A stretch of 64,000 nt of DNA. Source: Nitrospira sp. CG24B. Its GTDB lineage: Bacteria; Nitrospirota; Nitrospiria; Nitrospirales; Nitrospiraceae. Positions 1,485-4,459 of the stretch are shown piece after piece (the first letter of the stretch is position 1; each line of letters opens with the position of its first letter). The translations under genes were made by a program, and so were the position numbers. The stretch is from NCBI GenBank assembly GCA_002869845.2, contig NEWS02000003.1, positions 75,607-139,606 on the forward strand, read 5' to 3'. The notes under the pieces are model-generated. The model saw only the letters and a program-made list of their open reading frames with translations, made no database searches and was not told the origin of the DNA.

Positions 1485-2168
1485 ATGAGAATTCTGCTCG
1501 TTGAAGACGACGCCGATCTGGCTCAATTCATCAGAAAAGGATTGAAAGAGGAGCACTATGTGGTGGACGTGGCCGCCGATGGTGAAGAAGGCTTGGCATT
1601 GGCGTTGGGCAATGCGTACGATCTGCTGATCTTGGACATTATGCTCCCCAAGCTTGACGGCCTCACCCTCTGCCGCCGTGTTCGAGACAAGGGATTCATG
1701 ACTCCGGTGCTGCTTCTGACCGCGCGCAACACGGTGGAGGACAAGGTGTCGGGGTTTGATACCGGCGCAGACCAATTTCTGCCGAAACCGTTCGCGTTCG
1801 TAGAACTGCTGGCTCAAATCCGGGCCCTCTTGCGCCGAGGAAGTCAGCAACCACTGGTTCATCTCCAAGCGGCAGATCTGAAGCTGGATCCGGCTTCTCA
1901 TCGTGTCTGGCGGGCAGGACAAGAAATCGCTCTGACAAATAAAGAGTACGCCTTGCTCGAGTTTCTCTTGCGAAACAAGAACCGTGTGCTTACGCGAACT
2001 GCGATCATTGAACATGTGTGGGATATCAGCTATGACCCAATGACGAACATCGTCGACGCCCATATTCGAGCCTTGCGCGCGAAGATCGACCGGGATTTTT
2101 CTCCGCCTTTGATCGCAACAGTCCGCGGCGCAGGGTACATGCTCGAGGAGCCGAACTCATCGGCATGA
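1485..2168 (+). CDS. OmpR/PhoB-family response regulator
   Basis: A 227-residue two-domain regulator. Residues 1-120 form a receiver domain with acidic residues EDD near position 8, phospho-acceptor Asp51 in LLILDIMLP, and Lys in LPKPF. Residues 130-220 form a winged-helix DNA-binding domain of the OmpR class (NKEYALLEFLLRNKNRVLTR, VRGAGYMLE). An AGGATAGG-type ribosome-binding site precedes the ATG. Its stop overlaps the start of the adjacent kinase gene (ATGA), so the two form an operon and presumably a cognate pair. The two micropeptide genes and their shared palindrome lie just downstream and are candidate targets by proximity only. Confidence 0.93.
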   Translation: MRILLVEDDADLAQFIRKGLKEEHYVVDVAADGEEGLALALGNAYDLLILDIMLPKLDGLTLCRRVRDKGFMTPVLLLTARNTVEDKVSGFDTGADQFLPKPFAFVELLAQIRALLRRGSQQPLVHLQAADLKLDPASHRVWRAGQEIALTNKEYALLEFLLRNKNRVLTRTAIIEHVWDISYDPMTNIVDAHIRALRAKIDRDFSPPLIATVRGAGYMLEEPNSSA

Positions 2169-3586
2169 AATCTCTACGCAGTTTGATCAGTTGGTCCGCC
2201 TTCGTCTTGATGGCAGGCCTCATCTTGTTTTCCGCGCTCGTGTACGCGGTGAGCGAGGTGCTGCTGCATCGTTTTGTGGATGGACAACTCTTCGCGTTGG
2301 CAGAGACGCTTGCCAAGATCGTGGAGCAGCACCCTGAAATACTCACGCGAAGGGGTCAGGGCGGCGCACTTGCCGCCGACGTGCGGCGTTCATATGAGCT
2401 TCCGGAAGTGCCGCATTCTCTTCAAGTGTTTTCTCCAGACGGTCGACTCATCTGGACAAGTTCCAACACAGCAACGCCGCCTTCAATTCCGGCTGATATG
2501 CTTCAACGAGTCAAGCGTGACCACACGGTGTTTGAAACGGTTGACTCGACCAGTGTCCCGGCTCGACACGTATATCTGTCTACCGTACAAGACGGCCAAC
2601 TGCGGTATGTTCTGCAGGCACAAACCTCGCTGCTTCATTACCGGGAAACTCTGAATGGCCTTGTGTTTCTGCTCGCCCTCGGGTCCGGAGCGACGCTGCT
2701 TGTCGCCTGGGTCGGCAGCCTCTGGTTGGCAAAGAAGGTGTTGGCCCCAATCGACGCGTTGTGCACGGGCGCCGAAACGATGTCGGAAACCGATCTGGGG
2801 AAGCGCCTGGCGATGGATTCACCCTATCGAGAATTTCGGCGACTCACTCAGGCGGTCAACTCCGTCTTGGATCAGTTCCAACGCAGTAGCGAGGTCCAAC
2901 GGAACTTCTGCGAGATCGCCGCTCATGAGATGAAGACCCCTCTGACCATCCTGCAGGGAAACCTGGAAGTGGCGCTTATGAAAGCGAGGACCCCGGAAGA
3001 ATATCATGAAGTATTACTGAATAATCTCCAGCAAGTGGATCGGCTCATCGCCTTGACCCGTCCACTCTTGACGCTCGCGAAATTCACCAGTAGTAAACCT
3101 CCAGTCAATCTCGTCCCGCTCGCCGTGGAACCTCTGATTCAAGAGCTCGTGGATGAGTTGATGCTTTTGGCGGATGACCGTCAGATCACATTGCGGTTTG
3201 AATCCCAACCGGTTTCCGTCGTACTCGGCGATGCTCAGTGGCTCAAACAAGCATTGATCAATTTACTCGACAATGCGCTGCGGTACACTCCATCCGGTGG
3301 AGCCGTGACTATCCGCCTGCAGGCCGTCGGTCAAGACGTGACAGTGGCGGTCGAGGACACAGGCCACGGAATCGAACCCGAGAATATTCCCCATCTGTTC
3401 GAGCGATTCTACCGCACCGATTGGGCCAGGGCGAAAGATTCCGCTGGCACAGGGCTTGGACTGCCCATCGTGAAAGAAATCATGGATGCTCACGGCGGGA
3501 GCATTTCCGTTACAAGCGAAGTTAACAAAGGCTCTGTCTTTACCCTGCGTCTCCCGGCCTTCGCCCAGCAAAAAGCGCTCGCCTAA
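2165..3586 (+). CDS. Membrane sensor histidine kinase
   Basis: A 473-residue kinase paired with the preceding regulator by a 4-base overlap. Transmembrane helix 1 spans about residues 8-30. A periplasmic sensor region of about 125 residues follows, then helix 2 (LVFLLALGSGATLLVAWVGS, about 165-185) and a HAMP linker. The dimerisation box is AAHEMKTPLTIL, with the phospho-acceptor His near residue 255. The catalytic ATPase domain has the N box (NLLDNALRYTP), G1 (DTGHGIEP) and G2 (GTGLGLPIV). All motifs of an active HisKA/HATPase kinase are intact. The periplasmic part matches no ligand-binding domain I can name, so the stimulus is unknown. Confidence 0.93.
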   Translation: MKSLRSLISWSAFVLMAGLILFSALVYAVSEVLLHRFVDGQLFALAETLAKIVEQHPEILTRRGQGGALAADVRRSYELPEVPHSLQVFSPDGRLIWTSSNTATPPSIPADMLQRVKRDHTVFETVDSTSVPARHVYLSTVQDGQLRYVLQAQTSLLHYRETLNGLVFLLALGSGATLLVAWVGSLWLAKKVLAPIDALCTGAETMSETDLGKRLAMDSPYREFRRLTQAVNSVLDQFQRSSEVQRNFCEIAAHEMKTPLTILQGNLEVALMKARTPEEYHEVLLNNLQQVDRLIALTRPLLTLAKFTSSKPPVNLVPLAVEPLIQELVDELMLLADDRQITLRFESQPVSVVLGDAQWLKQALINLLDNALRYTPSGGAVTIRLQAVGQDVTVAVEDTGHGIEPENIPHLFERFYRTDWARAKDSAGTGLGLPIVKEIMDAHGGSISVTSEVNKGSVFTLRLPAFAQQKALA

Positions 3587-3719: not shown

Positions 3720-3774
3720 CATGAAGAATTCTTCACGGTCTCATCATGGCTGCTTCATCTTGGAGGCGTATATA
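3720..3774 (+). promoter_or_regulatory. Palindromic operator/promoter module, copy 1
   Basis: The palindrome-like CATGAAGAATTCTTCACG (3720-3737) contains a perfect 14-bp core, TGAAGAATTCTTCA. It is followed at fixed spacing by TCATCA (3741), CTTCAT (3753) and a -10-like TATATA (3769-3774), with the micropeptide ATG 33 bases further on. The whole arrangement aligns without gaps to the module at 4292-4346. There is no good -35 hexamer, as expected for an activator-dependent promoter. Confidence 0.6.
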
Positions 3775-3806
3775 GGTAGGAAAGCGAAAGGGGGTGAACA
3801 ACAATC

Positions 3807-3887
3807 ATGATTTCCTTTATTGAAGTGTTCTTGTTAGCCGCCATATTCGGAGTGTCATACGCGATGTTGCAGCTTGCGAGCAGGTGA
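3807..3887 (+). CDS. 26-residue single-span membrane micropeptide
   Basis: This ORF is too short for the ORF track. It begins at ATG 3807 behind a GGGGGTGA ribosome-binding site with good spacing and encodes MISFIEVFLLAAIFGVSYAM followed by LQLASR and a TGA stop. Almost the whole peptide is one hydrophobic helix with a basic C-terminus. It resembles the KdpF/CydX class of small membrane subunits in size and shape, but no kdp or cyd genes are in the window and sequence similarity is not clear. It lies downstream of palindromic module 1. A second micropeptide with the same promoter architecture lies 0.5 kb away. Function unknown. Confidence 0.6.
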   Translation: MISFIEVFLLAAIFGVSYAMLQLASR

Positions 3888-4290
3888 CCCGACTCGGACA
3901 ATGCTGTGGAGCGACCTGCTGGAGACGGGGGGCGGGGCAGAAAGAGTCATGCTTGCAGTCACGTACGCACTTGTGACTCGTGCTCGCCCCCGACAGAGGA
4001 AGTGGTTTTCACATGGTCTGTATGTCGTGCTGTGATCTCGGTTAGTCATACCTGCAACATCACAGGCGTCTGGTTCGGTGTCGCCGTGGCCCTGTGTTAG
4101 TTCGCAGACCCCAATCAGACTCATCATGCAGTCTGGTGCCCATCATCCTACGAGTCACTCCCTACGTAAGCACTACGGCTTTCTAGACACGGCCTCATTA
4201 TTCGGGCAGTTCGTCTTCGAAGAGTTTCGCGATATCCATCACTTGCTGTTGTTATTCGCCGATCAGTTGGCATGAGGTTCGGTCGCCGAA
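3888..4290. other. Gap between the two micropeptide genes
   Basis: About 400 bases without a convincing gene. A small stem AGTCAC...GTGACT is present near 3958-3980. The plus-strand ORF 4078..4275 (65 residues, alternative ATG at 4126) has no ribosome-binding site and no recognisable family. I leave this stretch unannotated beyond that. Confidence 0.5.
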
Positions 4291-4346
4291 TCATGAAGAC
4301 GTCTTCATGATTTCATCACAGACTCTTCATAGTCGAGAGCTATGCT
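4291..4346 (+). promoter_or_regulatory. Palindromic operator/promoter module, copy 2
   Basis: TCATGAAGACGTCTTCATGA (4291-4310) is a perfect 20-bp palindrome. As in copy 1, TCATCA follows at 4313, CTTCAT at 4325 and a -10-like TATGCT at 4341-4346, all at identical offsets from the palindrome. The micropeptide start codon is 30 bases beyond the -10. The preserved spacing in two otherwise diverged copies argues for a functional regulator site. Confidence 0.65.
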
Positions 4347-4375
4347 TTTCATCAGATGAAAGGAGGTGAAGATCT

Positions 4376-4459
4376 ATGATGACGATATTCTTTGCGTTGC
4401 TCGCCCTGACTGCTGTTCTTGGAGTGATGTACAAAGCCGTATACCTTGACCGCGAATAG
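4376..4459 (+). CDS. 27-residue single-span membrane micropeptide
   Basis: The start at ATG 4376 has a near-perfect AGGAGGTGA Shine-Dalgarno. It encodes MMTIFFALLALTAVLGVMYK followed by AVYLDRE and a TAG stop. The peptide is one hydrophobic helix with a short charged tail, similar in length and design to the peptide at 3807 but different in sequence. The strong ribosome-binding site and the conserved promoter module upstream suggest real and possibly abundant expression. It has a loose KdpF-like character. A small GGAGA-ACCG-TCTCC hairpin lies directly after the stop. Role unknown; a partner membrane complex is not visible nearby. Confidence 0.65.
   Translation: MMTIFFALLALTAVLGVMYKAVYLDRE

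Follow-up and report, generated by a model that had tools for sequence, protein, structure and literature searches.

Downstream of a two-component system in Nitrospira sp. CG24B lie two copies of one promoter module, each followed by the gene of a tiny membrane peptide, and we conclude that they belong to a Nitrospira regulon, so far undescribed, with a link to ammonia monooxygenase (AMO); a literature search did not find a paper describing it. The two modules are probably paralogous activator-dependent promoters of this one regulon, with the adjacent CusR-type two-component system in control. Four features read from the DNA carry this view: the conservation of the module, its co-occurrence with the kinase, the conservation of the peptides as coding sequence, and the presence of the module upstream of an amoD-amoC pair. 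Coordinates refer to the window, that is, the whole stretch of 64,000 nucleotides of contig NEWS02000003.1 that was analysed, and the two-component genes, both modules and the peptide genes lie on its forward strand.

The candidate activator, a response regulator of the OmpR/CusR type (1485-2168; Pfam Response_reg and Trans_reg_C), is followed by a sensor histidine kinase (2165-3586; HisKA and HATPase_c); the operon ends 134 bp upstream of module 1, which confirms what the earlier note had said of its position. Two genes are kept immediately 5' of the regulator in close relatives: one for FeThRed_B, the ferredoxin-thioredoxin reductase beta subunit (378-815), and one for a 205-aa protein with a weak carboxypeptidase-regulatory-like match (815-1432). 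The predicted regulator box of module 1 (3720-3758) comprises the palindrome (CATGAAGANNTCTTCACG; CATGAAGAATTCTTCACG at 3720-3737) and three TTCAT-type repeats at 11-bp spacing (3732-3736, 3743-3747 and 3754-3758); a -10-like hexamer, TATATA (3769-3774), starts about 10 bp past the last repeat, and the ribosome-binding site AAAGGGGGTGA (3788-3798) precedes the 26-aa peptide 1 (3807-3887; MISFIEVFLLAAIFGVSYAMLQLASR). The predicted box of module 2 (4292-4330) is built alike, with the palindrome CATGAAGACGTCTTCATG (4292-4309), repeats at 4304-4308, 4315-4319 and 4326-4330, the hexamer TATGCT (4341-4346), the ribosome-binding site AAAGGAGGTGAA, also given as AAAGGAGGTGA (4359-4370), and the 27-aa peptide 2 (4376-4459; MMTIFFALLALTAVLGVMYKAVYLDRE). 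Both peptides are single-pass (single-TM) by hydropathy and length. The two tiny open reading frames with their strong ribosome sites and upstream modules are thus where the earlier note had placed them, and the gapless alignment of the modules is borne out; palindrome 2 is indeed perfect, over 24 bp (4289-4312) rather than the 20 bp claimed, and TCATCA and CTTCAT, which had been taken as separate elements, are both present as the second and third copies of a single TTCAT repeat, whose spacing is exactly 11 bp and which keeps phase with the palindrome's right half.

The extended module consists of a palindrome of 7-2-7 geometry, TTCAT repeats every 11 bp and a -10 box; in a matrix built from 69 distinct modules the palindrome appears together with repeats whose offsets are 11, 22 and 33 and, at offset 48, a TA...T hexamer. 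The last repeat ends about 10 bp before the -10 element, a -35 element is absent, and no sigma-70 promoter-like match was found at the -10 of module 1 or module 2. In the organism's own genome the strict palindrome pattern occurs at these two sites only, as does the extended module with at most 3 mismatches. Of 147 family genomes, 61 have the short palindrome (reversed-pattern control, 0) and 90 the extended module (control, 0 of 147), and the extended module is missing from all 116 genomes sampled in the rest of the phylum; the module is real and far above chance. The palindromes were also considered as terminators, a reading ruled out by the absence of a T-rich tail after them; the single terminator-like match at the locus (3736-3752) overlaps the end of palindrome 1, and shuffled sequences give the same (mean 0.8).

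The earlier note had proposed an undescribed regulon of small membrane proteins, to be checked by looking upstream of small open reading frames in relatives. In dozens of Nitrospira genomes the module is found there, ahead of small TM peptides, so the proposal is supported and not refuted; its restriction to small proteins does not hold, given that AmoD-AmoC, lipoproteins and other reading frames are preceded by the module too. In a set of 129 distinct modules (at most 1 mismatch, from loci chosen by motif or kinase), 104 have a reading frame led by a ribosome site at +75 to +125, and 79 (61%) are followed by a TM peptide no longer than 50 aa, compared with 0.36% of random positions in the same loci. 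When three near-complete genomes are taken whole, with up to 3 mismatches allowed, 10 of 25 modules by our own count are followed by a peptide of 30 aa or less and three by amoD-amoC; downstream of the remainder lie lipoproteins, members of a 106-aa family, other products or no clear reading frame. At the named loci, the next reading frame led by a ribosome site encodes the 26-mer, the 27-mer or another TM peptide of 24-36 aa, or else a 73-79-aa protein, a lipoprotein of about 212 aa, or AmoC.

Some of these other products deserve separate mention. The 106-aa protein, conserved in many genomes of the genus, soluble-looking and unassigned to a family, has the variant module ATGAAGAAGTTTTCATCTTCTCCTAATGNTCTCTTCAT upstream (L109-L116, L138, L246, L259). 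The 73-79-aa family (MANIIxASMVCFPYVMxGLGQAIIVGT...), predicted to be module-driven at L123, L126, L141, L157, L160 and L238, ends in most copies with a CKVCFIPGC motif and is often the third unit directly after the kinase. At L067:3684 and L195, in a clade whose kinase is about 67-68% identical, the module lies 5' of a twin-arginine-type protein, 948 aa long or cut short by the contig, that resembles NxrA, the alpha subunit of nitrite oxidoreductase; this putative target suggests that the module of that clade is connected with nitrite oxidation.

Members of the 26-aa peptide family were found in 32 of 51 sampled genomes of the genus, and members of the 27-aa family, together with homologous N-termini of AmoD, in 37 of the 51. 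The pN/pS ratio is 0.30 for the 26-mers (35 sequences) and 0.27 for the 27-mers (11 sequences), values which the choice of both families by short sequence patterns could have slightly lowered; both peptides are under purifying selection, and the check on their conservation that had been asked for thus came out in their favour. That the two peptides differ in sequence is correct, but they are not unrelated products: their family profiles align with an hhalign probability of 89.8 (E 1.8e-6) and have G-V-x-Y in common, as befits what are evidently distant homologues. Neither peptide has a family in Pfam or NCBIfam, and searches of PDB sequences, run with the peptides as well as with both profiles, returned no meaningful relative. 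AMO is known to have supernumerary helices; neither peptide nor profile matches a chain of a solved AMO/pMMO in the PDB sequences.

The connection with ammonia oxidation emerges from the host, from the distribution of the peptides and from a third module. The closest kinase orthologues by name belong to Nitrospira metagenome-assembled genomes (MAGs) including RSF1, RSF5, RSF12, UW-LDO-01 and CG24A, many of which we take to be of comammox type; the AmoC family PF04896 was found in 59 of 147 genomes, with five matches in the window's own genome. Since its kinase orthologues sit in such genomes and PF04896 in its own, the host can be identified as a comammox-type Nitrospira. Within the genus, a match to the 26-mer or 27-mer accompanies AmoC in 38 of 40 genomes, against 2 of 11 where AmoC was not found, and the two exceptions possess the kinase; both peptide families are confined to this genus and nearly confined to amoC-positive genomes. 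The third module, on another contig of the same genome, is weaker (matrix score 9, left half-site imperfect) and lies upstream of a 219-aa protein; the product (219-220 aa) matches PmoD (PDB 6CPD, E 8e-8), and on account of this match it is assigned to the AmoD/PmoD copper-protein family. In agreement with PmoD, this predicted regulon member has two conserved cysteines, a periplasmic domain and a C-terminal TM segment, the cysteine pair and hydrophobic C-terminus being present in the copies read fully; unlike PmoD, it carries an extra N-terminal micropeptide-like helix, adjoins a stand-alone amoC, and has Leu for the Met of Cx7MxH. The CuA motif Cx7MxHxnC, as defined in PMC6189053, is indeed not found in the host's own AmoD, which reads CVQRVGGNLVH (Cx7LxH); the protein lacks this feature of a subclass, and its family membership stands.

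The first 25 or so residues of AmoD fall in the 27-mer profile, which itself included four AmoD N-termini, and the similarity can also be seen by eye; the second hydrophobic segment, after the 27-mer-like part, resembles a usual signal peptide. A stand-alone amoC follows the module-led amoD. The intact arrangement is seen elsewhere (module at G025:C12:288498, AmoC at 289293), and the module is absent from most other amoC copies inspected. In the host's own genome (G000:C18, about 288390-289880; L219) the region holds a truncated amoC, part of a second copy of amoD and another fragment of amoC; these internal duplications may be a real rearrangement or a repeat mis-assembly. According to a review (PMC6311188), every comammox Nitrospira genome carries one or more non-operonal amoC genes, whose function and regulation are unsettled and whose counterpart in ammonia-oxidizing bacteria (AOB) is stress-linked. 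The arrangement described here resembles the stress-linked AmoC3 of Nitrosomonas in that a non-operonal amoC would be regulated apart from amoCAB, and differs from it in that a module of the two-component type, not a stress sigma factor, would be responsible.

As to what the peptides do, a role with the AMO/AmoD machinery, most likely as helices associating with or assisting AmoC/AmoD, is tentatively favoured because of the AmoD fusion and the distribution across genomes, although our confidence in it stays well short of even. A more specific form of this role is held more tentatively still: the micropeptides might be condition-specific AMO helices that bind the AMO trimer or its assembly intermediates, the two-component system remodelling AMO by means of AmoD, an alternative AmoC and free helices of 26/27 residues that share homology with the N-terminal helix of AmoD.

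Two other roles are somewhat less likely. The first, which we regard as doubtful, is that the peptides, made under the activated regulator, are feedback regulators of their own kinase, inserting beside it and damping or retuning it as MgrB does with PhoQ. The genes directly 3' of the kinase in most loci encode such peptides, and single-TM small inhibitors of a kinase, dependent on the response regulator, are known (MgrB, 47 aa; PMC8404706); as in PhoPQ-MgrB, a small single-TM protein is encoded in the regulon of a two-component system. Unlike MgrB, the Nitrospira peptides are of 24-36 aa and multi-copy, have no sequence relationship with it and share homology with the N-terminus of AmoD; several copies are encoded well away from the kinase, with up to four of the 26-mer family in one genome, the type of peptide varies between clades while the kinase is kept, and the fusion of a 27-mer-like helix to AmoD suggests a target that is not the kinase. 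The second role, to which a similarly low weight is given, is that of general envelope-stress or respiratory-complex accessory subunits with no specificity for AMO. The inclusion of predicted lipoproteins and of the 106-aa protein in the regulon agrees with it, and so do relatives of the nitrite-oxidizing (NOB) type without detected amoC, which have a kinase orthologue, the module and a different TM peptide, of 36 aa; since these relatives have all three, AMO is not the ancestral role of the regulon, which predates or exceeds AMO. The near-restriction of the 26-mers and 27-mers themselves to amoC-positive genomes of one genus argues against a general function for these two families.

The assignment of the module to the adjacent regulator is drawn from protein profiles, the box and co-occurrence. 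The best NCBIfam model of the regulator is TIGR01387 (cztR_silR_copR), at 258 bits under a curated cutoff of 279.2, and the kinase likewise matches TIGR01386 (cztS_silS_copS) below cutoff; the regulator is thus closest to the CusR/CopR/CzcR heavy-metal OmpR subfamily, in the sense of a nearest model and not of membership. Its identity is about 88% in an amoC-carrying sister genus and 79% in N. defluvii, with the recognition-helix region almost invariant across clades. Signs of copper sensing through Cys/His/Met ligands of the kinase were sought, and no conserved residues of this kind were found in its periplasmic sensor domain. E. coli CusR binds AAAATGACAAnnTTGTCATTTT (PMC11195947), and the box CATTACAAAATTGTAATG is common to CusR and HprR (PMC9302797); the module core ATGAAGANNTCTTCAT, compared with ATGACAANNTTGTCAT of CusR, has the same 7-2-7 geometry, that is, CusR-like half-sites around a 2-bp centre, with 5 of 7 bases shared per half-site. 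As with CusR, HprR and CopR, a target adjoins the two-component genes; unlike in those systems, two extra direct TTCAT repeats are present, the kinase is without conserved metal ligands, and, in place of the Cus efflux genes of CusR, the predicted targets are micropeptides and amoD-amoC.

Almost every named Nitrospira locus has its module 3' of the kinase, and the module is present in 75 of 76 genomes with a kinase orthologue versus 8 of 63 without (genome sets compiled by hand; Fisher p 9e-29, in a test that ignores shared ancestry). The eight genomes with the module and no kinase orthologue above cutoff would fit a box bound by some other regulator that merely adjoins this system, but most of them are fragmented MAGs, and we consider this improbable in view of the near-complete co-occurrence and of a paralogous pair (L132, L133) in Nitrospira genomes without detected amoC: its kinase is about 46% and its regulator about 68% identical, with the same recognition-helix core, and it has a nearby module of its own, preceding the gene of a PepSY-like secreted protein (104 aa), which is what one would expect of a box proper to this regulator family. 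In a sister genus (L055, L056, L060, L061, L064) a palindrome lies about 100 bp upstream of the regulator gene and points away from it, which suggests autoregulation; the window's regulator has no such site upstream.

Control by the adjacent two-component system would then proceed as follows, the binding of the regulator and the function of the peptides being what we infer from these comparisons. An envelope or copper/AMO-related signal would lead the kinase to phosphorylate the regulator, which would bind the palindrome and the in-phase TTCAT repeats and stand in for the missing -35 element. This would resemble the class II activation of PhoB at pho-box promoters, where 11-bp direct repeats lie about 10 bp before the -10 and a -35 is absent. 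The module has the same 11-bp repeats, a fixed distance to the -10 and no -35; unlike the pho box, to which it is unrelated in sequence, it gains a palindrome from an inverted half-site. Each promoter would yield a short mRNA whose strong ribosome site directs synthesis of a single-pass inner-membrane peptide, and at a separate locus AmoD-AmoC would be made under the same regulator. That the peptides are instead hydrophobic toxins of the type I or TisB kind is very improbable: their size, hydrophobicity and multi-copy occurrence would suit, but their ribosome sites are strong and open, their promoters are of the regulator type, an Rfam search of the locus found no RNA family, antitoxin RNAs included, and the same helix is fused to AmoD.

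CusR-type boxes, PhoB-like geometry, small proteins of the MgrB type, AmoD and stand-alone amoC are all known singly; what is new is their combination, together with the homology of free micropeptides to the N-terminus of AmoD. For the comammox Nitrospira, the module offers a concrete candidate regulator and promoter for the non-operonal amoC, names co-regulated genes of 24-36 codons, a size that annotation easily misses, and ties their peptides to AmoD by homology. The small-protein families so defined are searchable in existing metatranscriptomes and AMO preparations, and the regulation of comammox ammonia oxidation becomes directly testable, starting from a DNA-binding assay.
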